A stretch of DNA of 64,000 bases from Macrocystis pyrifera (taxonomy: Eukaryota > Sar > Phaeophyceae > Laminariales > Laminariaceae). The notes under the pieces were generated by a model. The model searched no databases, was not told the origin of the DNA, and was given only the letters and a program-made list of their open reading frames with translations. The DNA lies in contig JASSKH010000029.1 in the NCBI GenBank assembly GCA_031763025.1, positions 6,926,763 through 6,990,762 of the forward strand. The letters run 5' to 3'. A program made the position numbers and the translations under genes. This document shows positions 3,260 to 60,078 of the stretch, in pieces. Each line of letters begins with the position of its first letter. Position 1 is the stretch's first letter.

Positions 3260-3368
3260 TATTGCGGGGGGCCGTGGTAAATAGGACCCACGGTACACAT
3301 GAGAAGCTATACATTTCGCTATTTTTACCAACAATATTTGGTCCTATTTACTACGTTCCCCCGTAATA
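3260..3368 (+). mobile_element. TA-flanked MITE, copy 1
   Basis: Begins TATTGCGGGGG and ends CCCCCGTAATA. The terminal inverted repeats extend about 29 bp and are flanked by TA on both sides. The plus orientation is defined as CGGTACACA coming first and TTTGGTCCTATTTACT last. Confidence 0.8.
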
Positions 3369-4576: not shown

Positions 4577-4923
4577 GTTTTTTTTTTTTTTTTTTTTTTT
4601 TCTTTTTTTTCATCATCACTTTTTACTTTCCAGCCCATTCGTAGGAGGTTTTACCCTCGACGATCTTCTGGACAAGCCGTGGTCACAGGTGTCGTCCCTT
4701 CTCCCCCCCGGTACGTGCCTTTAGTTTTTATCGCGCATAGGGTTCAGCATTCCCACTGCTCGTCGATTTTCATCGAATGTACAGCTAACTCACGCTCTCG
4801 CGCTTTCCGCTAATCAATTTTATGCAAGAAAAAGTCCCTATGAGCATGCACTCGGTGAGACTCGAACTCACGAAATTGATCTTGATAGGCTCGCGGACCA
4901 CCTACCAAGCCACCGGGGACGCC
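4577..4923 (-). mobile_element. tRNA-derived SINE, copy 1 (minus strand)
   Basis: Read on the minus strand this is the same element as at 59743-60078. It has a tRNA-like head with box A and box B, then a unique body ending in TGATGATG-like sequence and a poly(A) run, seen here as poly(T) at 4577-4610. Confidence 0.8.
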
Positions 4924-5520
4924 GGTATGGGGAGAACGGACGATCGGAGGAACTATACTGCTGTCACTGCTACTGTTGTCCTCTCGAGTGGTGGCAAGGG
5001 ACGCCCTGCTGCTGTGCCGCAGCGTATGGGTCCACTGCGTCAATGAAATGAGCACGAGCTCGTATGTAGATCCATTATTTGGTACCAGTCTGTCCGTGAA
5101 TGTTAAGTAGCGTTTTGTTGTTCATTTTATTGAACGAGCGGTTATTATTTACACGGACAGCGTGATACGTGGTGCTGCTTTGCGCAGCAAGACACACAGC
5201 AAAGTGCGTGGCGTATGCAAACAATGGCGACAACAGGAACACACCCACTCTATCGGCGGGGTGCGGAAATCACACTGCTGCTGCTTGTGGCAGCAGAATA
5301 TCACACACAAACTTACGGTATAGAGCGTCGGTCGTTAGAAACAAAATACCAACCGCACAGCTCGACGAACAGTAGAGACGGTCCGGGTGGTGGGTGGTGG
5401 TGGTGGTGCAGACAAACAGTGACGACAGCAGGCACGTACGTGCTGCTGTCCTCTCGACTGTCTGTGAGAATTGCACCGCTGCTCAGAACAGCGGAGGAGA
5501 AGTACAGTAGTATTAATAGT

Positions 5521-8490: not shown

Positions 8491-8498
8491 CACTACGT

Positions 8499-8824
8499 GC
8501 GTCCCCGGTGGCTTGGTAGTTGGTCCGCGAGCCTATCAAGATCAATTTCGTGAGTTCGAGTCTCACCGAGTGCATGCTCGTAGGGACTTTTTCTTGCGTA
8601 AAATTGATTAGCGGGAAGCGCGAGAGCGTGAGTTAGCTGTACATTCGATGAAAATCGACGAGCAGTGGGAATGCTGAACCCTATGCGCGATAAAAACTAA
8701 AGGCACATACCGGGGGGGAGAAGGGACGACACCTGTGACCACGGCTTGTCCAGAAGGTCGTCGAGGGTAAAACCTCCTACGAGTGGCTGGAAAGCAAAAG
8801 TGATGATGAAAAAAAAAAAAAAAA
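8499..8824 (+). mobile_element. tRNA-derived SINE, copy 2
   Basis: Begins GCGTCCCCGGTGGCTTGGTA (box A region). A T-arm-like GTGAG-TTCGAGT-CTCAC (box B) follows at about 8550-8567. The shared body ends GTGATGATG and then poly(A) at about 8808-8824. Confidence 0.8.
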
Positions 8825-9247: not shown

Positions 9248-9339
9248 ACCGGATGGTCGTAGAATGGGTACACCTCAGCAGTAGCATATTTTGATGCAAA
9301 TGGGTGGAAATAGAGGCCTAGGGGCTTACGCCGTGGCGG

Positions 9340-9655
9340 GGGAGACACTCATGTCATGCGTGGCCGTAATCGTATGACCATAGACCCTCGCATCCCTACA
9401 ATGCCGGGACGGAGCACGTCGGGTTTTCACCGATAAGGCAGACATTGCTTGTACTCATGTCATGCATGGCCGTAGTCGTATGACCATAGACCTTCGCATC
9501 CCATACAATGCCGGGACGGAGCACGTCGGGTTCCACCGACTGGGCGGGCATTGCTTGCACCAAGCTTTGCGAAGCGAAACGTGAGGTGTTGACGAGTCGC
9601 ATGAAGGGTGAGCTGCATCCTACTATACCCGCTGGTGAGACGGGCTTAATGAATT
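9340..9655 (-). mobile_element. Poly(C)-tailed retroelement, CATGCATGGCC type, head-to-tail pair
   Basis: In minus-strand sense the element runs from AAGCCCGTCTCACCAGCGGG to GCATGACATGAG and then a C-rich tail (plus-strand GGCGGGGG before 9345). A second, shorter copy is fused at 9345-9450. It shares its terminal ~75 nt with the LINE at 36388-37800. Confidence 0.65.
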
Positions 9656-10373
9656 GATTTGTTACTCTGGTGTGGCCACTTCCAGAGAGGGGGAGGGGGC
9701 ATGGAATGCCAACGCTTTGCTGACGATAAGACGACAACATCCTCGTACATACCGTACCCGTGGTCCTGTACGTACACGAGTACCCCTTGCGTCTTGCTTC
9801 CGGTGCTTTGATCAGTTGGCTGTTGGCGTATAGTATGTATCCACACACACACACATGTTTATGGTTGAGTCGTACCACAGCGAGAGCTACTGCTGTAGCT
9901 GTGCAATATTCGTGCATGTCCGTACACATGATTATTACACGTACGTAACGGGGCCCACCTTGCGACTACAGACTACTGGTGTATGATGTGTATTAAACCC
10001 ACTTTTAGTACGAGCTGTATTAGCGTCAATCGCTGCGAAATATGTCCCACACAAATTCCATGCAGCCTGCCGCCAAAACCGATTATATCAGTTCTATAAT
10101 TTTCGCTAACGTCGGAATGATGTACCGTGCATATTTCAGGGCATGAGATATATTTCCTAAACATAGGATCGGCTACTCTGCTTACTAGCGTAACAAGGTA
10201 CTATAGCATCTCCGCAGCGTAATTTTGTGACCACAGAGCTTGTATCTCTCTAGGATTGAAGAATCCGCACGGGCTCTGGTTGTGCTGGATGTCGACGGGT
10301 AGAATGAAACGGTTTGGTGTGAAGAACACGCATACAACTGGCCGTAGATCATGTTGCGAGGTGGGACCTGTGT

Positions 10374-10656: not shown

Positions 10657-17638
<6,982 letters not shown>

Positions 17639-18379
17639 TAGGGCGCCATGGTAAGAAATGCGAGTGCTGGTGCAGGCTGGAGTTCTTATCTCTGGGTACA
17701 GGATACAGGACACCTACTAGAAAGAAACAGGAATGCTGGCGAAGAGTAAACATGAAAGAATAAGAAATTATTGCCTGCGTACACACGACACCAAGTAGCT
17801 GGCATGCAGCCGGGGTAGGACGCAGGAGTGCTGGCTTGAGCTTGCGATGGATTTTCTCATTCTGGGAAACGGGTGGCGGTATACGTTGCTTCAGGTATAA
17901 GGATATCTACGTGCGGTAGATCTCAGCCAACCGTTTTCTTGTGTAGCGCTCGTTCTCGCAGGTAGCTGTCCTGCACTGTGTGTAGCAGCGACTAAGCGAC
18001 AAATACCACGATCACGAGGAGGAACATTGATGTTGTTGTACGGTGGTGGTGGTGGTGGTGGTGGTGGTTCTACCTGGTATATAGGAGATCGCCGTTCGAC
18101 CCCTTTTTGAGTGGCAGCCCTTCAACACTAAAACCGGTATAAAAAATGGCCAATAGAGGTCTTGGCGCGCCCGAAAAGACAGGTCTCCTGTGGTATGATT
18201 TTCGCCTTTGGCCGGAAATATAATATCCGTTTTATCTTTATATCAGAGTGAAAACGATGCTTATATTGCCGGTCAGACTTGTAGCATCTTTGATGGTGGT
18301 GGTGGTGGTGGTGGTGGGGCGGTGGTGGGAGAAGGGTGGAGGCGGTGGTAGAGCGGGGGAGGGGGGGGGGGGGGGGGGG

Positions 18380-18490
18380 TTGTGTACTCATGTCATGCAT
18401 GGCCATAGTCGTATGACCATATAGACCATTCGCTATCCCTACTACGCCGGGACGGAGCACATTGGGTTTTCACCGACCAGGCAGACAAGG
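18380..18490 (-). mobile_element. Poly(C)-tailed retroelement fragment, CATGCATGGCC type
   Basis: About 20 G, then TTGTGTACTCATGTCATGCA and GGGACGGAGCACATTGGG. The sense strand is minus. A further scrap (GTACTCATGCCTTGCATGGC) lies at 18842-18880. Confidence 0.65.
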
Positions 18491-19139
18491 GGAGGGGTGA
18501 CGCTTGCTTCGCAAGGAGCTACATAGCTGGCGGGCAGGCAGGGAAGGGGGGAGAGGAGGAGCAGGAGGAGGAACGCGCTGCCTGAAGAAGTGGCATGAGA
18601 CGGACAAGAAGCAGTACCGATTGTTATGGACGACGCTCCGCGTGGGGCACTAAGAATAGGGTGTAGTGGTGGTGGTAGTCGTGGTGGTGGCGGGGAAGGA
18701 GGACGGGGGAAGCAACACACCGATGGTCAGGATGAAGACTTGCCAGCAGCGGGCACGGTTGTACCGGGCGCGGCCAATAGACCCCGTGCTCGCTCGCTCT
18801 CTTTCTCTCCCAATCGCGTGTGGCCAACGGGGGGGAGGGGATGTACTCATGCCTTGCATGGCAGTAGTCGTATGACCAGGGGTAGGGGCGGTGGTGGCGG
18901 GGAAAGGGGATGGAGAAAGAAAAAAAGTTGACGCTCAGAATGAGGAGATGCGAGGGGCGGTGGCGGCTGTACCGGGCGCGGCGAGCAGAATCCGCTCCCT
19001 CTGTCTCGCTCACGCGTAACCACCGGGAGGAAGGCGCGTGCGCTGCTGCTGATCTTCCTGTTAGGGCAGACGAGCATTCCAAGAGGCGTTCCATGCGGAC
19101 AGGGGCGAGGGGATAAGGGGAGGAGGGGAGGGGGGATGG

Positions 19140-22300: not shown

Positions 22301-22914
22301 CTTGTTTTGGAAAGGGGTTGTTCTGCACCGACTTGAGTGTTTCGGCTGCCCATTTTTTTTGTATCTGTAAATCTTGCCCTCTGTCCTATTGCCCGCTTTC
22401 TCACTAGGTGTACTCTGGTAAAGTAGTGTGCAATAATCGTCTCGATGGGAAGGCTGCGGGATATCAAAAAGCTATATATATGCATTAATTGATGGTACGA
22501 TGGGAAGGGTGTCATCTGCCCGCAGTTTTCCTACTGGTCGTTTTTTTTATAGAAGAAAATTATTTTCCGAGAGGAAATTTCTGATCGGTGGGAAATTCCT
22601 GGTTGTCGGTCTGTGGCGGCACTCTTTCAGATTTTTGACCAATAGGAACACAGTTTTTCTACTGGTGAAAAAAAAAATAGAAGAAATTTATGATTAGTGA
22701 AAAATCCCTGGTCAGTGACGACGCATTTTCAAAGAAATGGCCAGTAAGGAATTGGAAATGGAAATTGTTGTGTGTTGCATGATGTGATATATGGTTGTGT
22801 TTTCGTCCTTGTTTTTTACATGTTTTTTCATCTCTATACTGCGGTGGTACACGGAATATCGTGATATATTTGCATGATGTTCCATCAACCGGAAGGGAAG
22901 GGAAGGGAGGGGGG

Positions 22915-23990
22915 GGGGGTGGTATGCGTCATGCACCCTCATGCGGTTTATTTTGATCGAGAAAATGGAATAGTTAGAAGGGTTTGATAGACGCTGACTG
23001 GGCATTGAAGGGCCGTGTGGCGGTCTGAGGGAGGGGTTTGGTGGCCGCAAGGACGCGGATTGCGGGGGGGGGGGGGGATTCTGCGCCGTGCCCAACCGTG
23101 CGTATTTCTTTGATTGAATTCATGGAATATAATTTCGACAGACGCTGACTGGGCATGGAGGGGGCGTGTTGCGGTGTAATGGAGAGGTTTAGTGGCCGCA
23201 AGGGGGCGGGATTGGGGAGGTGCGGGAGGTATGTGCCATGCCCACCCATGCCGTTTACTTTGATTGATATCATGGAATAGGTAAAGGGGTTCGATAGGAC
23301 GCTGACTGGGCATTGAGAGGGGCCGTGATGGGGTGTGGGGGAGGGGTTTAGTGGCCGCAAGGAAGCGGATTGCGGGGGGGGGGGGTTCTGCGCCGTGCCC
23401 GACCGTGCGTATTTCTTTGATTGAATTCATGGAATATAATTTCGACAGACGCTGACTGGGCATTGAGGGGGCGTGTTGCGGTGTGATGGAGAGGTTTAGT
23501 GGCCGCAAGGGGGCGGGATTGGGGAGGTGCGGGGGGTATGTGCCATGCCCACCCATGCCGTTTACTTTGATTGATATCATGGAATAGTTAAAGGGGTTCG
23601 ATAGGACGCTGACTGGGCATTGAGAGGGGCCGTGATGCGGTGTGGGGGAGGGGTTTAGTGGCCGCAAGGAAGCGGGGTTGGAGGCGGGGGGAGGGGGGTT
23701 ATGCGCCATGCCCACCCATTCGGTTACTTTGATAAGAGATCATGGAGTAGTAGAGGGATTCGATAGAGGCTGCCTGAGTATTGAGGAGTCGTGTTGCGGT
23801 GTAGGAGGGAGGGATTTCAAGGAGGCAGGCGTGATCGAGGGAGGGGGGGGGGTGTATGCGCCATGCCCAGTCATGCGGTTTACTTTGATTGAATATCATG
23901 GAGCAGTTGGGGGGGGGGTAGGGGGCGTTCGATAAGCAGCCACTGAGGAAGGAAGGGGCCCTTTTGCGGTGCGAGAGGAACAAGGAAATA
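22915..23990. repeat. Higher-order tandem array, two ~150-157-bp units making a 307-bp dimer
   Basis: The landmark ACGCTGACTGGGCAT starts at 22991, 23142, 23299, 23449 and 23606, with degenerate copies near 23766 and 23935. Alternating units differ (GAATTCATGGAATATAATTT versus GATATCATGGAATAG), and like units are exactly 307 bp apart. Each unit has a variable G run. Confidence 0.85.
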
Positions 23991-28473: not shown

Positions 28474-31400
28474 CTTCCCGGACGGAAGAGGTAATCATCG
28501 AGAAAAACGAATGAAAACCAGCTGGATTAAGAAAAACACGAGATGTAACGAAACGAAACGAGTACCCAACCCAACCCAACCCAGCCTAACCCAACCCGAC
28601 TCAACCCAACCCAACCCGGCCCAGCCCAGCCCAGCCCAACCCAGCCCAACCCAGCCCAACCCCATCCAGCCCTACCCAACCCAACCCAACCCAACCCAAC
28701 CCAACCCAACCTACCAGAACAGAACTGGATAGAACAGAGTAGAAAAAAAAGAAAACAGAACAAACCAAAACGGAACCAAAATATATCCAAGTCATTATTG
28801 CGCGTCTCCGGTATTACTCACTGTGGGGGTAGGTTCAGGCCCAGCCCGTCACCCACGTTGAAGTTGAGGATGTTTACTGAAAAAAATCGGCGGTGCCCGC
28901 GCAAGGGAGGGTTGGGGGTTAGAATCCAGAAACACAACCAGAAATACCGCAAAAAAAATAAGTGAACAAAAAAAAAAGCATCTTGAACCGCGAGAAAAAC
29001 CGGGGTCCATACCCCAAGACATAAAATGTCTGTGTACCGGTTGCCAAGTCCAACTGCGAAACCAACCGCAGGCCATTCCGTCGGTTTCCGCATCGACTCA
29101 AACATAGTGCAGCTGTCGCTAGCAACTCGCGCAGCCGTAGTTTTGTAACCGCCGTCAACTGCTGTGTGCGTTGGCGGATACTGGTCGGTCGGTCGGTCGG
29201 TCGGTCGGTCGGTCGGTCGTCGTCTCGGCCATCTCGAAAGGAGTCCCTGTGTTTTAGGCACCGAATGCATAAGAAACTCCCATTCGCTCGAAAAAAACTG
29301 TCCCTTTTTTTTCTCACCTCCTCCCATTTTCTACCCTTTATTCCCTCACGTTAATTAGCGACGTGGGTAAAGGCTGCTGAAGGCATCGAGTTTGTAAAAA
29401 CTGACGAAAGCAAATACATGTATACGCTACACCTTATCTCTATTTAGATGCCAGCTTAGCCCTGTGGGTTTAAGCTACTGCATTGACTACGCTAAAGCTC
29501 ACAACAAGACAACAATACGGTAGTCTATACTTTGTTCTATATGCTAGTTGAGCGATGCGGGTAAAAAGCTACTGCATCGACCATATTGAAACTCACACAC
29601 ACACAAAAAAAATCGCGTTTTCTACTGTAGATGTGAGTTCAGCGGTGTGGACCTACTAGGTATTGAATTTCGCACCCCCTTCCGTTCTCCATACTTCATC
29701 CTAGATTTGGTATTTGCTTTCCTCACCCCCTCCTGACTTGGTGTTGTCTTCTCCGCCATCAACGACCATCACGATGGTCTTGTCGTCCACCTGAATGGCG
29801 AATCATGATTGGTCCATGGGGGTCCACCTCGGTCAAATGCTACTAGCAGTGTTGGGTCAATTTTGGCGCATGGTCATTGGTCTATGGAGATCCACCTGGG
29901 CTAACGCTATTAGTGGGTCCATATCGGCACATTTTGATTGCTTCGTTTCGGTCAACGCTACGTATTCATGGGGTTCATCTAGGCATACTTTGATCGGTCC
30001 GTGGGAGTCCGAAAATCGATCGCGAGGCTGTTGATCGCTTCAGTTCATACCGGTACATTTTGATTGGTTCGTCTCGGTCAACGCTGTTGACGCGTGGCTA
30101 CGGTTTACGAATACATCACCAATTTTACCTTCTGAGGCTCCTAACTTGAGGAGCTACATACTAATAGTAAGTCATTACTAAGTCACCCAGAAACTGATTT
30201 CGACATAATCCTAGAAAAGTGCGAAACCCGATGAGCTATCCCGAAACCTATGCGAAATGTAGGTATGTCACGAAAAATATTGGAAAACACTATTACGGGG
30301 GACAATCGTAAATAGGACCAAAAATTGATAGTGAAAATAGGGAAATATATAGGTTTTGGTGTGTGTCGTAGGTCCTATCTACTATGGTCCCCCGTAATAG
30401 CTTTAAGAATGGTATTCCAACGATATCGGATGAAGGCGCCCGGTCAGTCCCAGTGACATAAATTGGCTAAAAAAGTGCTCGTGCCCCCGTCGTACAACGC
30501 GGATCTATCGTTGCCTATTGGTGGGGTTCATATCGACGGGGTTCCGAACCGACAGTAATTCCGCCGAAATTGTGATACTCGCATGATGCAGAAGAACAGC
30601 ACTGCGCCGTATGGCCAGTGGGCCATGAACACGTCATATGAGGTCCGGCATAGCCACGGGCTCTCCGCTCGACTTGGCTGGCTGCTCTCGCTACCAGGCA
30701 CTGGTAGTTTTGTTCAAGCTTTCTGTCCTCTTGAGTTATACATGCATGACCTGGTACTAAAACATGCGCGGTCTTCAGTGCGCCGGTGCTTGCTACGCAG
30801 CCTGCAAAGCTAAGGGCCCATCTTATCGAGGACTTTCGGTTCTTTCAATTTGACTTGATTCTTTTTTTTCTAACTTAACTTGAGGGCCCATCTTATCGAG
30901 GCCTTTCGGTTCTTTCAATTCGACTTGATTCTTTTTTTTTTCTAATTTAACTTGCGTCTGATTGAACGAAATTTAGTGTTCCCCGTTAAGATGGGCTCAA
31001 AGGGCGTCGACTTTCCCAATCGATCGAACTCAAATTCTGACGAAATACATACATACGGTGCTGTAACACATGACGAGAGAAAATATGACGCGATGGGATT
31101 CACGAACTCTGAACTTTAGTAGGGGGCATGCTCTCGGGTACCCGGATACCAACCCTGGTTTGCTCGTCTAGTAAATACATACACCGATTTACTTTCGCTC
31201 GTCGTTATGCCCTTCGTTTTTTGGGCTGTGGCATAGGCCTCGAATTTCAAAACGTCTGGTGGGTCTTTCGTTTTTTCAGCTACACAAGAAACGTCATCGG
31301 ATTTTTTTTCATTTGTTTTGCATCACCCGCACGTCCGAACGCCCTACGAAGAGGAACACTGTAAACCATTCACACCTCTAACAGACGATGATCTATCTGA

Positions 31401-32917
31401 TCTGTCTACCGTAGATGATCTAGTTCCTCGCCCGCCATTGTGAGAGGTTGTCCAGGATCTGCATATATAGTACAAATCCAACCCAGGGAACAAGCTCTAG
31501 ATCGTGCAGATTATACGGGTCCCACCCGGCAACACGATGTCATGCAAGACCGTGAATAGATCTATCTGCCTCGAAGGATCTAGATCATGATCTGTAGCTG
31601 ATCTGTAGATGACCTGTAGATGATCCGTAGATGATCCGTAGATGATCTAGATGACCTGTAGATGATCTGTAGATGATGATCTGTAGATGATCTATCTGTC
31701 CGAGGGGTGAAAGTACTACTCGTATACTCGGGGGTGCCACGATACTCGGGTATGTACCCGGGTACCCTCAGGGTGGGTGGGTATAGGCTGCTACGGTGTA
31801 ACACTAGGGTGTCTGGTATATTATGTACAGGACTGTTTTCACGAATATTTTGGTTGGAACCTATCCAGTTTGGGATTTTTCGGGTCTGTTTACTACATAA
31901 AAATGAACCCCAACCAACCCAAGGAACATTCAAGAGTCAACCCAACCCCAGAATACTCAGATTAGCACAAGGTGGCATCTTACAACCTGGTAATCATTTC
32001 TGGCTTGGGTTAATTAACTCTGACCTTCTAGGAAGGCTCCATCGGTTGGGGTCATTTTTATTCTATATATAGGAAACAAGACCACAAGAAACCCTACCAA
32101 ATCGGTTTCCAACCAAACTATTCGCAAGGCATGCCTGGGCTGGACTGGGCGGCCACATAGTAGTAAGTTGGGCGGGGAAGTGGGCGAACTAACCGAACTT
32201 AGCTTTTTCAAGGAGAACGCACACCGTTTCAATCGCACTTAGGGGTCAATGAAAAAAAAAAAAAAAAAAAAAAAACGGAATTACACTCGCCACCATGTAT
32301 TCGGAATTGAAAACAAACTATAGCGGGTGGAGATTTTTGTCATATTTTTTTGGAAGAAAAAAAAACATGTTTTTTTTTTGCAGGTTGCTTGTACTTGATT
32401 TGTGTACCCCCCCTGTCCGGGGCTATAACTAAAACATATGGGGCGTCGATTTTGTTTTCGTTTCATGTACCTAGGTCATAATTACTGTAGGAAAATAGAA
32501 TGAAAAAATATTTCCCCAAATATTATCGCCCAAGCAACCATTAATACCCGTAATATGTCCGTAATATGCTACCTACGTGACCAACTCAAAGGTCTATTAA
32601 TAACAAAAACACACTAGTCCTATATAGTTGGCGTTTTTTTCCTTCCAACAGTGAAGCACCGTCCTAAGCTGTGAGTGCTCTGACCTTCCAGTAGTCCTTG
32701 ACGGCCAGACCGGGCGTGTCCGGATATTTCTGGCACAGCAGCCTCAGTCTGTAACCCGATGCCTTTTCTAGCTCTTCCAGTTGCTGATTTGAAAAAAAAA
32801 ACAATGAACAAAAAATGCCATGAAACCGAATCGACGATTTCCCATGTCGTGGTGCCGAACAGGAGGAGGGGGGCAGGGAAGGGGGAGAGAGAAGGGAGAG
32901 GAGGAGAGGTCGGGGTG

Positions 32918-32960
<43 letters not shown>

Positions 32961-34252
32961 GGGGAGGGGGGGGGGGGGGTAGGGTACTCATTTCACTATT
33001 TCCTCGGTCGTTTGACCATTGACCACGCATCTCCTTCGAAACGGAGCACCGTTCCTGCTACTAATAGAGACACCTCTAACAGTTGGGCGCTCATTACGCT
33101 GTTCCCATAAATTACATTAAAAAATCCGCTACGAGTCTTGTCCCCTCCCTGTTTCGCCGCCTGTGGCCACCATTTATCTTCTAGAACAGCCATCGTATTC
33201 TCGGGGGGTACTTACCTGCCGCTTGCCTTAGCCATTTGACCAACCATTGACCACGCCCCCCTTCCAAGCCGGAGCACCGTTTCTAGCACCGTTCCTGCTT
33301 CTGCTATTATAGAGACACCGCCAACATTTGGGGGCTCATTACGTTATTTTAATACGTCACATTCATAAGTTTTTTTCTTATCTTTTCCCCTTCTTGTTGG
33401 GCTGGGGGGGAGTTGTAGAGAGCGCACCGCCGGGGATAGATACCAGGCGCATACCGTAGAACACAGAACAGGGATCCAGTTACCCGATAGGGACCTATTT
33501 TTTCAACGCTTGCAAAGCGGAGGAAGCCAGGCCACCCTCTCACCTTGTTGATCCTCTTGACCTGCCCCTTCGTGAGCATGCCGACGAGGTCGATCACGTT
33601 CGTCTGCTCTTTCGGCAGCAGCTCCTGGAACGGCGCACGGTCGAAGGGGGAAAAACGAGGTGGTGCACGAGAGCGAAGGGGCGGCATCAAAGGAGGGGGG
33701 ACAGGGGAACGGTAAAGGAAAGGCGGGGGCGAGAAGGGGGTGAAGGGGTTAGGGTGGCGGGGGTGTGGGATACTCACGCCAAGCATGGCCGTAGTCGGAT
33801 GATCATAGACCCTCGCATCCCTACAATGCCGGGACGGAGCACGTCGGGTTCTCAACGACCAGGCAGGCATTGCTTGCACCAAGCTTAGCGAAGCGCCGTG
33901 AGGTGTTGGGCGAGTCGCATGAAGGGTGAGCTGCGTCCTACCATGAACCGCTTGTTTTGAGGCGGACTGTGGAGGGCGAAGGGGGGATGAACGCTTTTTT
34001 GGCGAGTGATATCAACATCCGATATTCCACAAACCGTAAGGTGTGGAGGGTCCTCTCTGGGTGTCCCGCCCGCCCATCTCCCTGCCCACCTTTACCACAG
34101 TAACCACCGTGACCACCACCACCACCACTCCCATCACCACCCCCAACACCACCACCACTCCCATCACCACCCCCAACACCAACACCAACACCAACACCAA
34201 ACACCACCATCACCAACACCAACACCAACACCACCAACTCCCCACACATGCC

Positions 34253-34289
<37 letters not shown>

Positions 34290-37200
34290 CCGTCGCAACC
34301 GCAACCACCTCAACCACCATCGTAACCAAACTACAAAACAAAAAGGTTGAAAAAAAAAAAAGAAACGCATACGTAGACACGCATGCAGCAACATGGTTGT
34401 TTGTAGTGGCACAACGCAACGCACCGGGCGGTTCACCCCTGCCTTGCGGGCCTGCGCCTCTTGAGGAGGAGCCCCAGCACCGACAGAGACAACTCCTAGT
34501 CCAGCTCCGAGCACGGCCCTCGCGGCCTTTTGCAACGCCTCCTTGCGAGACAGCTCGCCGCCGTCTGGACCACTCTGCCATCGTCCGTCGTTCGTTCACA
34601 TCGTCAGGGAGGGGGGGATGATGGGGGGGGAGGGGGGGAGGGGGGGGGGGGCGCACTCATTTGTCGTTTCTCTTAGTCATTTGACCATTGACGGCGCATC
34701 CCTTGTGCAAGTGCTCGTCCTAATTCATTGTTTACCTTGCGTCGTTTCACCGTTGACCACGCATCCCTTTCGAGACGGAGCACCGTTTCTACTCGCAATA
34801 GTCGTGTCGTGCATGGCCGTAGCCGTATATGAAAATAGACCCTCGCATCCCTACTATGCCGGGACGGAGCACGTCGGGTTTTCACCGACCAGGCAGACAT
34901 TGCTTCCACCAAGCGCGAAGCGCCGGTAGGTGTTCGGCGAGGCGCATGAAGGGTGAGCTGCATCCTACTGAGAACAGGTCGTGAGGCGGACTTTCTTGCA
35001 TTTGGATGACAGCGTCAAATGAGAGGGGGAGGGGGGGGGGGGGTGGGGGGGGAGAGGGAGAGGATGGCGGGCAGGCAGACAGACAAACAGACAGACGGAC
35101 AAGCAGGCAGACAGGCAGACCCTCCGAGGCACGGAAAAGCGGTGTATGGCAGCGCAAATTCTCTTACGTCTCTACAATACGAAAGGGTAGGTTAATGAGT
35201 GGGATATCTGCCGACTTCGTGTTTCACGCCCACCGACTACAACTGAGGACCGGAGTAAATAGCACCTGCGGTACACACAAAAACCTATATATTTCCCTAT
35301 TTTTACTAACAAAATTTGGTCCCATTTACTATGGTCCCCCGTAATAGCCTCTCGGGAGGAGGAAAAGACGGCACAGGATCGATTTGCTGTACGCAAGGAG
35401 TAGCCTTTGATACCGTGTCGAAAATTCGATGCAGCATGTCGAAATGTCGAGGTTCGACTAGTCGCAGATATATGATGCATCGCGCGTTTTACCCCCCACC
35501 ACCACCATACGACTACGGCCATGCATGAGATCGAGTACATCTCTCCTATCGAGTACACCCCCCCCCCCCCGCGCGCGCGCGCAGCATCTCCGTATCGTTG
35601 ATGCTGATGCTGAACGAAAAAAACAAAAACGACTCGTCATATGATATATATCAATATCATACCAAGGTATCGAGTATCGGAATCGTACCGATTCGGTTTC
35701 TCGCTTTTCAGTTGTCATACCACTATCGAACCGCAGTAGAGTACGATATGTATAACTACCGTGGCGCGTACACTACGTGCCTGTCGCATACCTGGTAGTC
35801 ACACAATATCCTCTGTCAACGCCCCCCCGCCCTTGTACCCCCCCCCCCCCCCCCCCCCCCCCCTCCTCCATACGACTACGGCCATGCATGATAATGAGTA
35901 CACCCCCCCCCCCCGAAAAAAAAAAATGGCCGAAAAAGTGATTAAACGCTGGGTTATGCCCAGAGAAGGAGTTTTTTTCTTCTTTTTTTTCGATGAAGCC
36001 CCCCCCCCCCCCCCCCCCGTTTTCTTCGGTATCCCCGAGGACAAGCTTGAGCATCGAAAATAAGTCGCCCTCCCCCGGGGGACGGCACGAAAAAACGACA
36101 TCACCCCGGGGGGGAAAACACAACTACTGCACATCTGTGGTATTACGTCCCGCCCCCGCTGCGGCTTGTATGCGATGAGCAGTGCGCATCCGTTGCTGTT
36201 CCTTGTTCGTCGTTACCGCTCCACGAGCCCAAACTCCGCCTGCTACATAAAACCGCGGTCTTGCTGGCGGTAACCGACGTCAAATATTCGTAGCACAGGA
36301 AGAATCAACCACGGTAGGAAAAGCAAGCCACGCGGTGGCGGGGAAGCGAGCTACACACGATACTGCTATCGTGGATGTGCCGAGGGGGGGGGTACTCATT
36401 TGTCGCTTGCCTTAGTCATTTGACCATTTACCGCGCATCCCTTTCGAGACGGAGCACCGTTCCTACTCCTAATAGAGACACCTCCAACAATTGGGCGCTC
36501 ATCACGTTGTTTCCATAAATTACATAGAATTTTTTTGCTAACCTTATCCCCTACCTGTTTCGCCGCCTGTGGCCAACATCCATCTCCTAGGATAGCGATC
36601 GTTTCCTCGATGCTATTCAGTGTACCAAACTCCTTCGTGTCACATTCGTCTGTTTCCCTCATCTCCTCTTCTAACACATCCCGTTCCTACTTGTATGTTT
36701 CACATTCTCCTACTATGTGAGTTGTACTCTCTATTGCTTTGCCACACGGGCACATATGTGCATCTACTTCCTCCTCCTCCCGGCTACTGGTATACCTCTT
36801 CTTCTTTCTGTGAGGTCCAGGTCCCCTACACGAAAGCGCAGTTTCAGCGTTTTTGCGAAGTCCATTGGGCCATTCATATACCTTTTCATTCCTATTCCTT
36901 CCCTCAGTCCCTCGTATGTCTCTAAGTGTTTTTCCGATTCCACCTTGTTTCTTAGCGCTAGTCTTTCCCTTCTTTCTATCCTTTCTTCTACTTCTGCCTT
37001 ATACCTCTCTTCCCGGTGGACATCACCTCTTCTTGGTTTCCCCCTATATCCTTCCATACTTTCTAAACTACGCCATCCCACTTATTCCAGCTCGCCCTTT
37101 AGTTACTTTCTCCCATACAGCTCTATCAACTATGTCTTTTTTGGCATGTTCCTTACTTTGTATTGACAGTTCAACTTTCTCATGCCTTTATTTGTCTTGA

Positions 37201-39779
37201 GTCGGTGCATTCCCAGTTCTGCTCATAATACTGTATTACTAGTCGTACTTGAGCATCTTATGATTTTTTTAGCTGCTGTCACTTGTACTGTTTCCAGCTG
37301 TTTTAATACGAGTTTCGCGTTCCCTTCCCATACCTCTCCTGCAAATTCTAGCTTTGGTACTATCACATTCACCAGGATACATCTCTTAATCCTAGTGTCA
37401 AGGTGCGATTCCGTTAGGATCGCATCCATCTTGCCTACTTGTGCCTTAACCTTTACTATTACTTTTGCTATATGTGTATTCCAAGAGCAGTATTACGATA
37501 TCTCTACGCCAAGGTATGTATAATGGTCTACGGTCGGCAAGTGATCTTCTCCCCGCTTCCAACTCAAATTTACCGGGTTTACCTTATCTTCGTTACGAAC
37601 AACTACTGCGCATCTCTTGACGTTCGCCGTCACCCTCCATTTCCTGGTGTATTCTATTAATAGCGCTTTCTCTATTTGTTTCTGCAATCCTTGGGGTGTT
37701 TCTGATATCCCCACGAAGTCATCCGCAAACATCAATCCCGACACAGCATCTTCCCCTACCGTGACTCCCTGCCCTGCTGCCTCGACTGACAGAGGATATT
37801 AGTTATAGCGCGTATACGACATGAAAACACTTTGCATGTTTTTTTTACCTCACAATGGATTCCTGAGTAAGGGGACGGATAAGCTATGCTTCCCGCGTAT
37901 TTGTATGGAGGCCACTATTACTGGGGACCATAGTAAATAGGACCACATATTGTTAGTAACAATAGGTAAATATATAGGTTTTTATGTATACCATAGGTCC
38001 TATTAACTATGGACCCCCGTAATATCAGTGCGTACGGGCTGTTGGTTCTGAAACACAACCCGCGGGATACGAAAACGTAGGCGCTCCTCCCGAATTCGAC
38101 TACGGGTGTGCAAGCATTCGCGCGCGCGTTTTGCTTCGTCGGTCGATCGATCGGTCTTATCCACGCATCAGATCATCTACAGATCGTCGACAGATCATTC
38201 CCACGTCATGATCTAGATTTTTCAGGGCAGATAGATTCATGACCTCTGTAGGATCTACAGCAGTAGCTCACACGTTGCCCGTGGGAGCCGCGTATAATCT
38301 GCGTGATCTATTAATAGCGCACGTTGCTTGAGTTGGATCTTTGCGTATAGCAGATCCTGCACCATATATCACAACGGCCGGTTAGGATCTTAGATGGTCT
38401 GCTGCTGTGTAGATCATGGTCGGTCAGGTAGGTGGTTATGCCGTGGTTCTGGGTTCGCTCGCCTGTCCGTCGTTACCAGCGGCCGCCATGACGGTGATCA
38501 GCGGAGCGCTCCTGGTCGCCCACGCCCCTCCTTCCCGCCGAACAAGCAGGCCTGCCCAAGATAAACAAAAACCAATTAGAAAAACAAAATGGGAAACACG
38601 AAAACACGAAAATGCACATACTCTGATACTACAGGCAGTAGCAGCATTGCCGGCACTAGTCAGTATGTACTGGCCGGTACCGGTAGTATTTATTGGCAGA
38701 TACTATTTCGGGGGACCAAAGTAAATAGGACCTACGGTAGTAAATAGGACCTACGGTACACATAAAAACCTATATATTTCACTATTTTTAGTAACAATAT
38801 GTGGTTCTATTTACTATGGTCCCCCGTAATACAACAGGTACTACTGGTACCGGTTTTGCTACCTGCCAGTGCTGGTACTACCAGTGTATTTCTGGTACAT
38901 ACGAGTACCAATGTATTGCTGGTACTATTACGGGGGGCCATAGTAAATAGGACCAAATATTTTTGGTAAGAGTACGTAAATATATAGGTTTTTGTGTGTA
39001 CCGTAGGTCCTATGTACTATGGTCCCCCGTAATACCACTAGTACGGGGGGGCATAGTTAACAGGACCAAATATTGTTAGTAAAAATAGGTAAATATATAG
39101 GGTTTAGTGTGTACCGTAGGTCCTATTTACTATGGTCCCCCGTAATAGTACTGCTGTGGTACAGCTGCAGCACCAACGAACGCGTGCCGGGAACTTGGGA
39201 GCATGGTTGAGTATTTCAGCGGTAAGCACTCTATGTACGTTCATAGCCGCCGCCAGTATGTGTTGGGGAGCATCGCGAACGTACTGCCTGTTTCGTGACA
39301 CAGGACACCATCACTCTTCCCTGCTTCCTTGCTTGCTCGTTTCCTGGGGTCTGGTTTACTATTAAATATTAATTCAGCAGTCAGTACGAGTACCTACAAA
39401 GCATCAAGTATGTCTGCTGTAGTACTCTCCGGCTGCTTGAGCGTACCTTGAGCATATTAAGAGGTGTTCATCAAACGTTGCTCTAGGGAAAATCTCTGTA
39501 TCTCTGTCCGTCTCTCGCTGCGTGTTGCCCTTGCTTGGCTGAACTGTGAACTGATGTGCTGATGTGCGAGAGAGTGCATACTGGTGCGTGTGCTGTTTGG
39601 TATCCTGTCTGCGTCGACATGCCAGTACCAGCGGAAGCATGCTACCAAAGAGAGGACGTTGCACGTCGAACCTCACCAGAGACTTGAAAGCCCGACGCAG
39701 CAGGAATAAGAGCCAGCAGGCAACCCGCGATCCAGAGAGAAGCCACCATCAGACTGTGGCTGGGATGCTCGGTGTACAT
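28317..39779 (-). CDS. Thylakoid lumen 15 kDa-type protein with TPM (TLP18.3/Psb32) domain, 8 exons
   Basis: Exons (minus strand) 39677-39779, 38477-38551, 34425-34564, 33544-33624, 32685-32783, 29727-29790, 28822-28876 and 28317-28473 join in phase with GT-AG borders to give 257 residues. Residues 11-26 are a signal-peptide core and A-A-S-G/F (27-31) is the stramenopile plastid junction. Residues 31-60 are transit-like (R-rich, Ser/Thr/Ala). S-R-K-E-A-L at 65-70, a hydrophobic run at 74-91 and A-Q-A at 96-98 form the lumenal transfer signal. The mature part has [57 protein letters not shown] and [14 protein letters not shown]. From memory these match the plant thylakoid lumen 15.0 kDa protein. 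The family is linked to photosystem II upkeep; the exact activity is unknown. Upstream ATGs at 39794 and 39749 are also in frame. Confidence 0.9.
28565..28715. repeat. (CCCAA)n/(CCCAG)n repeat in intron 7
   Basis: An almost continuous run of CCAAC and CCAGC pentamers lies upstream of the exon 8 acceptor. On the sense (minus) strand it reads GGTTGGGTTG. Confidence 0.75.
28822..28876 (-). CDS. Lumen-protein exon 7
   Basis: Preceded by a T-rich tract and CAG; ends CCA-CA/GTGAGT. Encodes [17 protein letters not shown], the most conserved block of this protein type. Phase 1 in, phase 2 out. Confidence 0.92.
29727..29790 (-). CDS. Lumen-protein exon 6
   Basis: Follows CATTCAG and ends GGAGGGG/GTGAGG. 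Encodes [20 protein letters not shown], the counterpart of the plant segment beginning VDD with a beta strand. Phase 0 in, phase 1 out, as both neighbours require. Confidence 0.9.
30291..30399 (-). mobile_element. TA-flanked MITE, copy 5
   Basis: TATTACGGGGGACAATCGTA at the left and TATGGTCCCCCGTAATA at the right. It lies in intron 5 of the lumen-protein gene. Confidence 0.82.
30814..31002. mobile_element. Small inverted-repeat element with a 70-bp internal duplication
   Basis: GGGCCCATCTTATCGAGG starts two ~70-bp direct copies (30814 and 30884). The far end TTAAGATGGGCTC is the inverse of the start. It looks like a short fold-back or MITE-like element. Confidence 0.5.
31376..31705. repeat. 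GATC-rich dispersed repeat, copy 3
   Basis: GATGATCTATCTGATCTGTC at one end, then TCCCACCCGGCAACA and a string of GATGATC(T/C)GTAGAT units. It is in intron 5 of the lumen-protein gene. Confidence 0.55.
31848..32118. mobile_element. Fold-back element with ~70-bp arms
   Basis: The left arm, starting TTTGGTTGGAAC, is the imperfect inverse of the right arm, ending TTTCCAACCAAAC. AAAAATGAACCCCAACC pairs with GGTTGGGGTCATTTTT on the inner side. About 120 bp separate the arms. Confidence 0.65.
32685..32783 (-). CDS. Lumen-protein exon 5
   Basis: Acceptor is a long T tract then CAAATCAG. Encodes [20 protein letters not shown] and [13 protein letters not shown], ending AAG/GTCAGA. Phase 0 on both sides. 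Confidence 0.94.
32862..33207 (-). mobile_element. Poly(C)-tailed LINE 3' fragment, sense to the host gene
   Basis: Plus strand shows a ~110-nt G-rich tract, then GTACTCATTTCACTATTTCC, GGAGCACCGTTCCTGC, AATAGAGACACCTCTAACAG and CTGTTTCGCCGCCTGTGGCC, matching the LINE at 36388. On the minus strand the C tail points toward the exon 5 acceptor. Confidence 0.78.
33208..33365 (-). mobile_element. Second poly(C)-tailed LINE 3' fragment, adjoining the first
   Basis: GGGGGGTACTTACCTGCCGC, GCCATTTGACCAACCATTGA and TAGAGACACCGCCAAC belong to the same 3' end. It abuts the 5' end of the copy at 32862-33207. Confidence 0.7.
33544..33624 (-). CDS. Lumen-protein exon 4
   Basis: CGTTCCAG acceptor; encodes [20 protein letters not shown] then QVKRINK, ending AAG/GTGAGA. 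Phase 0 both sides. It is the first block of the mature domain. Confidence 0.94.
33771..33972 (-). mobile_element. Poly(C)-tailed retroelement, CATGCATGGCC type, upstream of exon 4
   Basis: GATACTCACGCCAAGCATGG through GACGGAGCACGTCGGG to GAGTCGCATGAAGGGTGAGC. On the minus strand its C-rich tail leads to the exon 4 acceptor about 150 nt away. Confidence 0.72.
34085..34330. repeat. CACCAC and CAACAA microsatellites in intron 3
   Basis: (CACCAC)n with CAACACCAACAC variants, then (CAACAA)n at 34250-34288. No coding support. Confidence 0.7.
34425..34564 (-). CDS. Lumen-protein exon 3 (lumenal transfer signal)
   Basis: Acceptor GTGGTCCAG completes an Asp codon started in exon 2. Encodes [20 protein letters not shown], a hydrophobic run, the A-Q-A cleavage site, and AGVNRP at the donor CCG/GTGCGT. 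R-K replaces a twin-arginine pair. Confidence 0.9.
34615..34800 (-). mobile_element. Poly(C)-tailed LINE 3' fragment upstream of exon 3
   Basis: Plus-strand G run, GCGCACTCATTTGTCGTTTC, GTCATTTGACCATTGACGGC, and a second GTTTCACCGTTGACCACGCA with GAGACGGAGCACCG. The sense C tail ends about 50-85 nt from the exon 3 acceptor. Confidence 0.72.
34801..34995 (-). mobile_element. Poly(C)-type retroelement, CATGCATGGCC type, fused to the previous copy
   Basis: GTCGTGCATGGCCGTAGCCG, ATGCCGGGACGGAGCACG, then GGCGCATGAAGGGTGAGCTG and GTGAGGCGGACTT. It joins the LINE fragment without an intervening tail. Confidence 0.7.
35238..35346 (+). mobile_element. TA-flanked MITE, copy 6
   Basis: The left end has decayed (TACAACTGAGGACC); the right end is intact, TATGGTCCCCCGTAATA. 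Confidence 0.75.
35508..35912 (+). mobile_element. Two poly(C)-tailed element tips with C runs
   Basis: CATACGACTACGGCCATGCA appears at 35507 and 35871, followed by GAGTACACCCCCCCC. The first is followed by CG repeats. Both are antisense to the host lumen-protein gene. Confidence 0.65.
36384..37800 (-). mobile_element. 5'-truncated LINE with reverse transcriptase remnant and poly(C) tail
   Basis: On the minus strand, fragments read in order: [20 protein letters not shown] (RT motif C with F-A-D-D, 37493-37744), then a thumb-like segment ([20 protein letters not shown], 37223-37429), R/E-rich sequence, and a C-terminal piece (36396-36677). The frame changes several times, so it is dead. The 3' end reads GCAAGCGACAAATGAGTACC and a run of C at 36384-36392. 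Shorter 3' copies lie at 16.0, 32.9, 33.2, 34.6 and 42.4 kb. Its active-site Asp pair is kept; the finger and palm regions upstream are missing. Confidence 0.82.
37916..38024 (-). mobile_element. TA-flanked MITE, copy 7
   Basis: TATTACTGGGGACCATAGTA at the left and TATGGACCCCCGTAATA at the right. Confidence 0.82.
38157..38416. repeat. GATC-rich dispersed repeat, copy 4
   Basis: CAGATCATCTACAGATCGTC, TTTCAGGGCAGATAGATTCA, GTTGCCCGTGGGAGCCGCGT and CGGTTAGGATCTTAGATGGT in the family order. Confidence 0.6.
38477..38551 (-). CDS. Lumen-protein exon 2 (plastid transit region)
   Basis: Acceptor TTTATCTTGGGCAG, donor GCTG/GTAACG. Encodes [20 protein letters not shown] then MAAA in phase 1/1. The plus-strand frame here resembles a signal peptide but is a shadow. 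Confidence 0.85.
38704..38831 (+). mobile_element. TA-flanked MITE, copy 8, with internal duplication
   Basis: CCTACGGTAGTAAATAGGA is followed by a repeat of CCTACGGTA, lengthening the copy to 128 bp. Right end TATGGTCCCCCGTAATA. Confidence 0.82.
38926..39034 (-). mobile_element. TA-flanked MITE, copy 9
   Basis: TATTACGGGGGGCCATAGTA at the left and TATGGTCCCCCGTAATA at the right. Confidence 0.85.
39039..39147 (-). mobile_element. TA-flanked MITE, copy 10
   Basis: TAGTACGGGGGGGCATAGTT at the left and TATGGTCCCCCGTAATA at the right. It lies only 4 bp from copy 9 in the same orientation. Confidence 0.82.
39677..39779 (-). CDS. Lumen-protein exon 1 (signal peptide)
   Basis: Encodes [20 protein letters not shown] then [14 protein letters not shown] and ends TCTG/GTGAGG in phase 1. 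The ATG at 39749 gives a tighter signal peptide; the ATG at 39794 adds five residues. Confidence 0.85.
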
Positions 39780-40382: not shown

Positions 40383-43300
40383 GTGAGTCCCTCCCTCCAT
40401 CTCTCTGCCGTGTCATGCTTTGCCGTGGGCATATTTTTTGGGCGCAAACAAGAAAAAATACGACAGCTTTGTTTAAGTTCTCCCGATCGGTCGATATTCT
40501 CTCAACTCTGAAAGCTGCGTGGTGCGTCGGTCGCAGCGGTTCCTACGTGCATTCCTCGTGAATACAGAGAGGCCGGTGACTCCCCCGGATGCTACCAGCA
40601 GGGTCGACAAAACAATATAACTCACATAAACTATAGGAATGATTCGTATGATATTGGTATTGCTCACATGTTGACACAACAGCGGCAGATGGCGAGTAGA
40701 TCTTGGTGCCCACGATTGGTTGCGTTGGATGACTGCTCATGGTGGTTCCCGCGATCTATTCAGACGTTGACGATGCTCGCGTCTCGTGGCCTGTTGCGCA
40801 GGGGAGAGGTAGGATTACATGTAGGTAGGGCAGGATGTAGGTAGAGGGCAGGGGGGCAGGGTATGGTAGACGGGAGTGGCGGCTCCGAGAGATTGTATAT
40901 GGTTCAACTGGCATCGTATCAACGGGGAGCTCGTTTTCTTACATGTAGCTAAAATGTAGTTCGAATTTTCCGAGGCGAAATGTCTGATCCTGCAATCCAC
41001 AACCAGCTAGCTGTTTACTCGTGCTATGACACCTCTGGCTATCAGCGCGCGATACTGCTCTTGAGAAACGCAGCCCCTAAAACAAGAGCATTGAAACAGC
41101 GAACTGTAAAGACTCGTTTTGTTGCGGGACCGGCAACACACTGCGCTCTACGTCTGTCTGCGGTACATATCAGTTCGTACCAACACAACCAATAGATAGA
41201 TGTTATACCTGTATGAGCTGTAGGAAGGAATCTTACAGAAGTGGCGACCAAAAGGTGACAAAAGGGCCGCTCGGCGCATCCTGTAAACAAAAAGATACAC
41301 GCAGATACTACTACGGCGGTAGACTATAGTAAATAGAACCAAAAAAATGTTAGTTTAAATAGGAAAATATATAAATGCTTTTGTTGCCGTAAGTCCTATT
41401 TACTATGGTCCCCCGTAAATACGGTCGTGTGCATACTGCACACGATGAAAGCTTGGTACTATGGACGTTGGCGATTTGAACGCCCACTACTCTGTGGAAC
41501 CTTACCTGTGGTATTCACGCGGGTCTGCGACGCATTGCTGCTGCTGCGGCACACCTCGAACAATAACACCAACGATGCATGCATGCCGATATTGCTGCGA
41601 AAAGGCCCATTTTAATGTAACGGCATGCGGGCTGCTGGGAAGCGCGTTGAGCCCCTCGGCGGATAGCCCGTTCCCCCAAGATTTTCATTTCTAAAAAACG
41701 AAAACTTACACGCCAGCTGTGAGTTCACCCTATCGGTCGATACTCAGCTTTGCAAATGTGCGTGATAAACGTTAGGTTACAGCACAAAGTCTCCGTGCGC
41801 AGAATAACTCCCGTGCGTAGGCTGCCCGTATTTATAATCGCCGTGTTACACAAAATATCGCCCAGGGGGAGTCATCGACCTACGAGTATACTTCGTATAT
41901 ATACATCTATACATCTATACGTCTTTCACGGGGTCATACCCTACTCTTAAATAGCATGCGCGACCAAATAATCACACAAGCAGCTTGCGAGATGACTCTC
42001 GAACAAAAAACGATCGATGTTTTTTTTCACCGCGAAAAACATTTTTTTTGTGTCTTAGAATACAAAATATGTCATCGTTGATCCTGGGGCGCGCATGGGG
42101 AGTCGACCAGACGGGCGAAGTCTCACACCTGGTTCAAATTTTGTAGCCCGATGAAGAGACAATCGCATAAAAATAACGGAACAAAATAAACAAAAATGGG
42201 ATTGCCAAGAGATTTTATACTTCCTCAGTTGGAGAACGCCGTCAGTCAAAACTGGGCCCAAGAATACAAAATATCTCCCCCGGGCGCAGTATATATGGGT
42301 ATCACCCGATTTGTCGGGTCAAACCAACGTAGTCCTGATAGCGTTCGTTTCATTTCACCTCGATGACGATATTCTCGTCCCCCCTGCCCCCTGCCCCAGC
42401 GCCCCAATGTTGGGAGGTGTCTCTATTAGGAGTAGGAACGGTGCTCCGTCTTGAAAGGGGCGCGCGGTCAATGGTTAAATGTCTAAGGCAAGCGCCAAAT
42501 CAGTACGCCTCCTCCCCCCTCCCCCTGCCCCCCCCCCTCCCCTTGCTTTTTTCCCATCGGATAGCGCATCCGAGGCCGTATCGCGCGGCATATTCGACGA
42601 GGAGGAAGGGGAAGTTTTATCCGGGGGACCCGTTGACAGCGAGTCGCTGAGCCCACCTCGCATTCACCGACACCCCCGGCGACCCATCAACAAGAAGGCC
42701 GCCGCCGCAGCCGCGACGCGGAGAAACGGGGCACTTTGCCTCGCCCTGTGCGTGTCCGCCGTCTCGCTAGTGTGGATCATCACGAGAGACGACGGAGCTC
42801 CTGCCGGTGAGTGAAGGGATGCTGTATACATTCCGAAGTACGCATTTCGTTTGTTTTCCAGCCAGCAATGAGCTTGAACGGCGATCGCGCCCCCCCCCCC
42901 GCCCCCCAAAAAAGGGAACATGTTCATGTGGTCCTAAAAACGGAACATTTTCATGTGGTATTGTTATCTTTTTCCTCTGACAAGGTCCAGCCCAAACTTC
43001 GACCCCTCAAAGCTATGGTGGTGGGAAGAATAAAACCCTCAAAGGACACCAAACATGGAACCTGAAGGCCAAGTAAACTTAACGCGCTACAAATGTCTCC
43101 ACCCGGCTCCAGCCTAGAAAATGCGCTGCTCGATTAGAAGGTGCTACGTGTTGAGCTATTTCGGTGGTTAGAAGGAATTAATTGTTGAGATATATCAGTC
43201 ACGTGACCGAAATAGCTACTTTCACGGCTGCTTAATAGTAGGGTGTGGTGAATGAAGCATACCACCAATACAATGTTTTTGGTGTTGTTCACTATTAACG

Positions 43301-59470: not shown

Positions 59471-59742
59471 GGAAGTGTAGCAAAACGACGAGAGCTAGGG
59501 GTAAAAAATGCGCAGTAACTTAAGATGCCATTGAGCCCAAGGCCCGGGAGGGGGGGGGGGGAGAGAAGCCGGGTTGAAGGAGGTGTAGCAACAGCAGCTA
59601 GGCCGGTTAAGAAAATGAAATCACCCGCCGAAACGAGGCGCTGGCCGCCCTTCTAGATGAGACGCCCAGTGACTAGTGCCTGATGCTGTGTTACATTACC
59701 TGTTGTATTCGTTTTATTTTTGTTGTTGTCTTGCTCTATACC

Positions 59743-60078
59743 GGCGTCCCCGGTGGCTTGGTAGGTGGTCCGCGAGCCTATCAAGATCAATTTCGTGAGT
59801 TCGAGTCTCACCGAGTGCATGCTCATAGGGACTTTTTCTTGCATAAAATTGATTAGCGGAAAGCGCGAGAGCGTGAGCTAGCTGTACATTCGATGAAAAT
59901 CGACGAGCAGTGGGAATGCTGAACCCTATGCGCAATAAAAAATAAAGGCACGTACCGGGGGGGAGAAGGGACGACACCTGTGACCACGGCTTGTCCAGAA
60001 GATCGTCGAGGGTAAAACCTCCTACGAGTGGGCTGGAAAGTAAAAGTGATGATAAAAAAAAAAAAAAAAAAAAAAAAA
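59743..60078 (+). mobile_element. tRNA-derived SINE, copy 3
   Basis: GGCGTCCCCGGTGGCTTGGT (box A region), then GTGAG-TTCGAGT-CTCAC at 59794-59810, a perfect 5-bp T-arm stem with a 7-nt loop (box B). A body of ~240 nt ends GTGATGAT and ~25 A. It is nearly identical to the copies at 4577 and 8499. Confidence 0.85.

Follow-up and report, generated by a model that had tools for sequence, protein, structure and literature searches.

Poly(C)-tailed LINE-type elements of giant kelp probably insert into pre-existing C-rich tracts and follow a strand rule at both ends of introns

We analyzed a 64,000-nucleotide (nt) stretch of the genome of the giant kelp Macrocystis pyrifera (GenBank assembly GCA_031763025.1, contig JASSKH010000029.1, positions 6,926,763 to 6,990,762; hereafter, the window), complemented with genome searches of its own assembly (537,376,219 bases in 223 contigs). 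The window harbors two families of poly(C)-tailed elements, here termed A and B, and its initial annotation had pointed out that several copies lie in sense orientation just upstream of splice acceptors. This observation is half of a wider rule, the mirror half of which consists of antisense copies located just inside splice donors. We consider it highly probable that A and B constitute a non-autonomous/autonomous pair of the long interspersed nuclear element (LINE) type, that their target is a pre-existing C-rich tract, and that they insert on its C strand, lying near acceptors because C-tracts lie there. The apparent association with splice sites is thereby reduced to a simple and testable rule, according to which the element strand is the C strand.

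Element strand in introns selected without reference to the elements

Introns were selected from gene families, blind to the presence of elements, through the contiguous profile positions of neighboring exons. The resulting set comprised 79 introns (L064-L142; 78,680 nt) from genes encoding kinesins (37), chaperonin CCT (20), kinases (7) and myosins (15), with lengths of 153-2,615 nt (median 805) and a bias towards shorter introns. For kinesins, 117 of 131 rows were used, omitting mirror-duplicates, rows in very long reading frames and others, and 37 of the 39 delimited introns were retained, the two longest being omitted. The CCT introns were hand-picked, omitting those over ~2.6 kb and ambiguous pairs; kinase pairs that were non-contiguous or had a common reading frame were left out; and 15 of 20 requested myosin introns were used, none over ~2 kb having been requested. 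PF00501 yielded no intron for the set.

Nineteen of these introns contained 26 copies with a 3' end (10 sense, 16 antisense), after exclusion of three intronic matches without one, and the other 60 contained no copy bearing a 3' end. Seven sense copies and one antisense copy were located within 250 nt of an acceptor, compared to one sense and 13 antisense copies within 250 nt of a donor (Fisher p = 3.5e-4). The strand rule, with sense copies at acceptors and antisense copies at donors, held for 20 of the 26 copies versus 7.2 expected, and none of 100,000 permutations, in which copies were shifted and flipped within each intron, was as extreme. The sole antisense copy near an acceptor resides in a 214-nt intron, where it is also 15 nt from the donor. 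The relationship of position and orientation to splice sites put forward in the initial annotation is hence upheld for the two-sided rule, whereas the acceptor half taken alone (7 copies versus 3.6 expected, p = 0.055) is only suggestive at the present sample size. Furthermore, sense copies before acceptors do not outnumber antisense copies inside donors, which argues against the proposal that acceptor pyrimidine tracts per se are the target.

The sense/antisense counts were 5/0 at acceptors and 1/5 at donors in kinesin introns alone, 1/0 and 0/5 in CCT introns, and 1/1 and 0/3 in the 22 kinase and myosin introns. Chance clustering of copies was rejected by this element-blind test, and so was common ancestry of the test introns: after masking A and B, the matches seen between introns were mostly ~110-nt pieces spread across many of them, which we take to be another dispersed repeat. 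No match was seen among the three myosin introns that occupy the same homologous position (L138, L139 and L142), and dropping L139 and L142 changed the counts to 7/0 at acceptors and 1/11 at donors.

Polarity of element-free C- and G-tracts

The ends of kelp introns are polarized in C and G even where no element is visible. In the 79 introns, 36 of 63 element-free C-runs of 6 or more were found within 250 nt of an acceptor and 5 near a donor, and 30 of 61 element-free G-runs were found near a donor and 9 near an acceptor (C/G polarity, Fisher p = 4.5e-9). With introns polarized in this manner, an element residing on the C strand must take the sense orientation ahead of acceptors and the antisense orientation behind donors. 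The possibility that the element-free runs were stripped element tails was rejected, since a GAGTAC-like remnant was present upstream of 5 of 100 such runs, as compared to 6.8% at random positions (first 57 introns). A small number of the element-free runs appear to be part of a different repeat family.

C-runs at both junctions and stacking of copies

The 5' junctions were inspected in 53 copies (23 B, 30 A), following removal of 7 of 60 copies (all B) in which the element reached the locus edge. A C-run of 6 or more was present in the 60-nt junction window (35 nt upstream and 25 nt downstream) of 39 copies (16 B, 23 A), compared to 5.0% of 901 and 6.6% of 1,200 controls, and a G-run in none of the 53. 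A stricter count, restricted to the 35 nt upstream of the called junction, returned 26 copies (15 of 23 B and 11 of 30 A), with controls at 3.6% and 4.3%. The drop for A in the stricter count stems, we think, from alignments of near full-length copies that extend through their C-runs. At the other junction, 51 of the 53 copies had a C-run in their tail. C was enriched up to ~30 nt upstream of truncated copies, the 5' flanks of which are often impure C-rich tracts. Because B starts at many different points, the 5' C's of truncated copies are not element sequence; those of near full-length A copies are ambiguous, and it is therefore the B copies that carry most weight.

Copies also stack on one another. 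Nineteen of the 60 copies were followed by another A or B copy within 100 nt, and all 19 of these were in sense orientation (0 antisense), indicating that the tails of existing copies receive further insertions, to which some regional sense bias is added. Of the 31 C- or G-runs of 10 or more in the window, 13 were located within 40 nt of a copy on the matching strand, and none was found beside an opposite-strand copy only. Two unrelated repeat families of the window (17 copies) presented a C- or G-run of 6 or more in none of their 34 flanks. Together with the 5' C-runs and the sense-only stacking, this result supports the notion, already advanced in the initial annotation, that insertion is targeted to C-rich tracts.

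Composition of families A and B

Both families end in GAGTAC followed by a C tail that is long and variable in length. The 3' end of B reads ...GACTAAGGCAAGCAACAAATGAGTAC(G)CCC and that of A reads ...CATACGACTACGGCCATGCATG..GAGTACACCC. The two share a 54-nt 3' core that includes a TGCTCCGT...GGTCNATGGTCA block and that, with the last 12 nt excluded, aligned with a local score of 40 versus a shuffle maximum of 25; the column majorities of their 3' ends were identical at 63 of 98 aligned positions (16 copies of each family in both comparisons). A first look across the genome returned 2351 B and 2971 A candidates, of which only ~40 each were scored.

Judging from its coding potential, B appears to consist of 5'-truncated copies of a LINE of the apurinic/apyrimidinic endonuclease (APE) type. 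Long B copies encode Exo_endo_phos_2 and RVT_1. The endonuclease was matched in copy L031 by PF14529 (6.2e-07, over the cut-off) and PF03372 (0.00097, below it) and in copy L033 by PF14529 (9.7e-05, below the cut-off), and L033 also matched the reverse transcriptase profile PF00078 (8.6e-10, over the cut-off). The shortest B copies measure 67 nt and the longest exceed the 1,500-nt locus flank, with the GAGTAC+C end in common, and the 53 A and B copies counted at 5' junctions extended over 67 to 1,445 nt. Four Ectocarpus proteins match B with 57-72% identity over 14-37% of the query, in matches that name no clade, and a PDB sequence search with the B protein gave no match at E 0.1. A CRE or Penelope parent, suggested by Ectocarpus copy numbers, was dropped once B revealed an APE-type endonuclease.

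The extent of A was 500-620 nt in 21 of 30 copies, and A is probably a ~550-nt non-autonomous family sharing the 3' end of B. A structured-RNA or tRNA origin received no support: in a scan of the window, in which promoter boxes were not scored, nothing reached the Rfam gathering score and ARAGORN detected no tRNA.

Proposed insertion mechanism

In the mechanism that we propose, the APE-type endonuclease of B, or of a relative, would nick the G-rich strand of a C-tract, and the RNA, with its 3' end ...GAGTAC(A/G)CCC, would be reverse transcribed using the nicked G strand as primer (target-primed reverse transcription), with the B protein presumably mobilizing A as well. The sense strand of the copy would therefore come to lie on the C strand, most copies would be 5'-truncated, and C's would remain on both sides. 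Every new tail would constitute a fresh C-tract, open to another insertion, and head-to-tail stacks would ensue. Within introns, where C-runs precede acceptors and G-runs follow donors, the tail of the element would point at the nearest splice site.

Several observations weigh against this mechanism or qualify it. In 14 of the 53 copies the junction window contained no C-run of 6 or more, and in 27 none was present strictly upstream; at 1.4 kb, the longest B copy of the window (36392..37788, minus strand) is also devoid of a C-run at its called 5' end. In near full-length A copies (21 of 30), the 5' C-run could be the start of the element itself. The sense bias of neighboring copies is partly regional, since beyond 100 nt a copy start was contained in 28 of 360 bins of 150 nt, and 21 of those 28 were in sense. 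Target-site duplications are unreadable, as both junctions fall mostly inside C-runs, and no filled/empty orthologous pair was seen; that the empty site is a C-tract is suggested by stacking (19 of 60 copies followed by another). The copies analyzed genome-wide were the best matches to the query rather than a random sample. Lastly, elements agreed with the intron-end rule more often than element-free tracts did (20 of 26 versus 66 of 124; odds ratio 2.9, p = 0.03), so that tract length or selection may make an additional contribution.

Insertion into C-tracts might also have shaped the introns themselves, by making tracts on the splice-site side recurrent landing pads, a possible mechanism for the long, element-rich introns of brown algae. 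We tentatively suggest, while regarding it as somewhat doubtful, that kelp introns grow inward from their ends in a self-renewing process, in which tracts serve as landing pads, insertions leave new tracts behind, and polarity favors the orientation least harmful to splicing. Were this the case, the base composition flanking splice sites would set both intron length and the element strand that is transcribed with the gene.

Alternative explanations

A strand bias of this kind could arise if insertion into introns were random and selection purged the copies interfering with splicing or polyadenylation, so that those in sense would persist close to acceptors and those in antisense close to donors. 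The slightly stronger end bias of elements relative to tracts would fit such a process, and intronic transposable elements (TEs) of Ectocarpus, which are shorter and more degraded, look selected according to part of a published account (PMC12477816). We nonetheless deem this explanation improbable, for it predicts neither the C-runs at 5' junctions, including those strictly upstream, nor the sense-only stacking (19 of 19), nor the matching polarity of element-free tracts. The kelp data call for caution, in that an orientation bias of intronic TEs can come from target composition instead of selection.

Still less credible, in our judgment, is that the flanking C's were made at insertion, by untemplated or slippage-extended C addition, and that the bias toward intron ends reflects chromatin or R-loop access and not the C-tracts. 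Tails are indeed long and variable, no empty site has been seen and the 5' C's of near full-length A copies may be their own, but truncated copies are often flanked on their 5' side by C-rich tracts that are impure, C being enriched well upstream, copies land in the tails of other copies, and element-free tracts occupy the same places.

The least plausible explanation is that the polypyrimidine tract or splice signals come from the elements, which would thereby create or define acceptors in the manner of introners or exapted tracts: a C tail is the sole clear pyrimidine tract of one acceptor (exon 3 of the gene described below) and runs into two putative ones (16196 and 42565), but most of the introns tested lack any copy bearing a 3' end, a separate T-rich tract precedes exon 5 of that same gene, no account is given of the mirror placement at donors, and element-free C/G runs do not resemble old tails. 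The corresponding suggestion of the initial annotation was mostly not borne out, since element-free C-runs share the acceptor bias (36 of 63, versus 9 of 61 G-runs) with no excess of remnants, although exon 3 may be an exception in which the element does supply the tract.

Relationship to known elements

Non-long-terminal-repeat (non-LTR) retrotransposons that target microsatellites are a recognized class, reportedly treated by Kojima and Fujiwara in 2004. Like them, A and B insert into a simple repeat and display the same repeat at both junctions of most copies. Examples given in part of a later paper include Togen, which targets (TG)n, and targeted APE-type groups exist in the Tx1 and R1 clades (Kojima and Jurka 2015, PMC4640811). 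Unlike Togen, A and B target a C homopolymer or C-rich tract, and the strand polarity of this target in introns fixes their orientation relative to genes.

Introners, reportedly examined by Gozashti et al. in 2022, are elements that supply both splice sites and equal the whole intron. A and B resemble them in being repeated elements located in introns near splice sites, but they fill only part of the intron, inside both splice sites, and neither supply both sites nor define the intron.

Pairs of LINEs and short interspersed nuclear elements (SINEs) that share a 3' tail are known, as stated in a section of the review by Ohshima (PMC3747384). A and B likewise share a 3' core but, in contrast with such pairs, neither a parental RNA nor an RNA polymerase III promoter was assigned to A, promoter boxes not having been scored.

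By description, the two families resemble RTE-X and RTEX-N1 of the brown alga Ectocarpus (PMC12477816, in part), to which they may correspond. RTEX-N1 is there portrayed as a very abundant non-autonomous family of ~600 bp, the 3' end of which is common with autonomous RTE-X LINEs, and LINEs and LINE-dependent elements are stated to be common in Ectocarpus introns (PMC12477816, same portions). The passages of its main text considered here describe neither insertion into C-tracts nor a strand rule at splice sites. In an incomplete literature search, we likewise found no description of a C-tract-targeted LINE or of a donor/acceptor strand rule. The C-homopolymer target with splice-site polarity hence looks new, microsatellite-targeting LINEs themselves being known.

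Copies in the window and the lumen-protein gene

The window contains 15 merged A and B copies, several of which lie in a minus-strand gene predicted by homology to encode a thylakoid-lumen TPM-domain protein. Its joined exons match proteins of Ectocarpus fasciculatus, Choristocarpus tenellus and Laminaria digitata, as well as the plant 'thylakoid lumenal 15.0 kDa protein 2', and the Pfam TPM match of the joined exons alone is below the cut-off. Exon 3 (34425..34575; tblastn with P0001 and P0003), exon 4 (33544..33624; P0001-P0004) and exon 5 (32685..32783; P0001-P0004, 72-92% identity) were delimited by tblastn and splice consensus. Three further exons were placed by homology near 29790, 28877 and 28480, with no A or B copy near their acceptors, so that a sense copy lies upstream of three of the six homology-placed acceptors. 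As originally reported, these three are the acceptors of exons 3, 4 and 5, which are backed by brown-algal homologs and the AG/GT consensus: the final nucleotide of the element ahead of its C tail is at 34655, 33771 and 32984, respectively, or ~79, 146 and 200 nt upstream, in sense in each case. Ahead of the AG of exon 3, no clear pyrimidine tract other than the C tail is present, and the acceptor of exon 5 has a T-rich tract of its own.

Intron 4 of this gene contains a B copy (32984..33203, minus strand) with a C tail at 32921-32979, seen as G-runs on the plus strand. A second B copy (33208..33403, minus strand; 5' flank ...CCCCCCC) adjoins its upstream side via a short C tract, in what constitutes a stacked insertion. 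Intron 3 harbors a 5'-truncated A copy with a C-rich tail and a C-rich 5' flank (33751..33968, minus strand). Ahead of exon 3, an A copy passing into B sequence (34717..35023, minus strand) has the C tract at 35031-35043 as its 5' flank, and is followed by the 3' end of a further B piece (34655..34704, minus strand), the C-rich tail of which stops ~32 nt short of the acceptor. Across 34655-35023, the A copy runs straight into B 3' sequence twice, forming a composite that may reflect nested insertion or template switching. Upstream of exon 3, two very short A 3' ends with tails lie on the plus strand, antisense to the gene: one has a C-rich 5' flank (35506..35568) and the other is located directly behind a 26-nt C-run (35869..35914).

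Two other cases raised in the initial annotation are consistent with this arrangement, each being a sense B copy whose C-rich run leads into an AG, at putative exons defined by open frame and splice consensus. At the first, a near full-length A copy (15383..15958, plus strand) with C-runs at both ends (15386-15399 and 15948-15958) has a B copy stacked behind it (16000..16153, plus strand), ~43 nt upstream of the putative acceptor at 16195/16196, which its C-rich tail reaches. At the second, a 5'-truncated B copy with both sides C-rich (42398..42506, plus strand) lies ~58 nt upstream of the putative acceptor at 42564/42565. The minus strand also carries a 5'-truncated A copy flanked by C tracts at its two junctions, with a 30-nt tail (13713..13842), two A copies arranged head to tail (9335..9688), a 5'-truncated A copy with a 19-nt C tail (18361..18487) and a short A 3' end with C-rich flanks (18829..18878). 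An almost pure G-run of 96 nt (15054-15149) has no adjoining A or B copy and, under the proposed rule, would be an unoccupied long target.

Other repeats of the window

A tandem array at 22907-23900 alternates units of ~150 and 157 nt and includes two 300-nt stretches that are 98% identical and 307 nt apart; several of its units contain G-runs, and the array is not an A or B copy. Three copies of a 300-nt repeat (4621-4928, 8494-8786 and 59738-60045), 96-99% identical and found in both orientations, probably represent a recently active short transposon. An abundant ~113-nt repeat with inverted copies (TATTACGGGGGACC...GGTCC) is present at 3260, 4375, 11761, 27354, 30288, 35247, 37902, 38738, 38924, 41309, 43800, 46572, 47905 and 61302, and sequence resembling it adjoins some of the element-free runs in introns.

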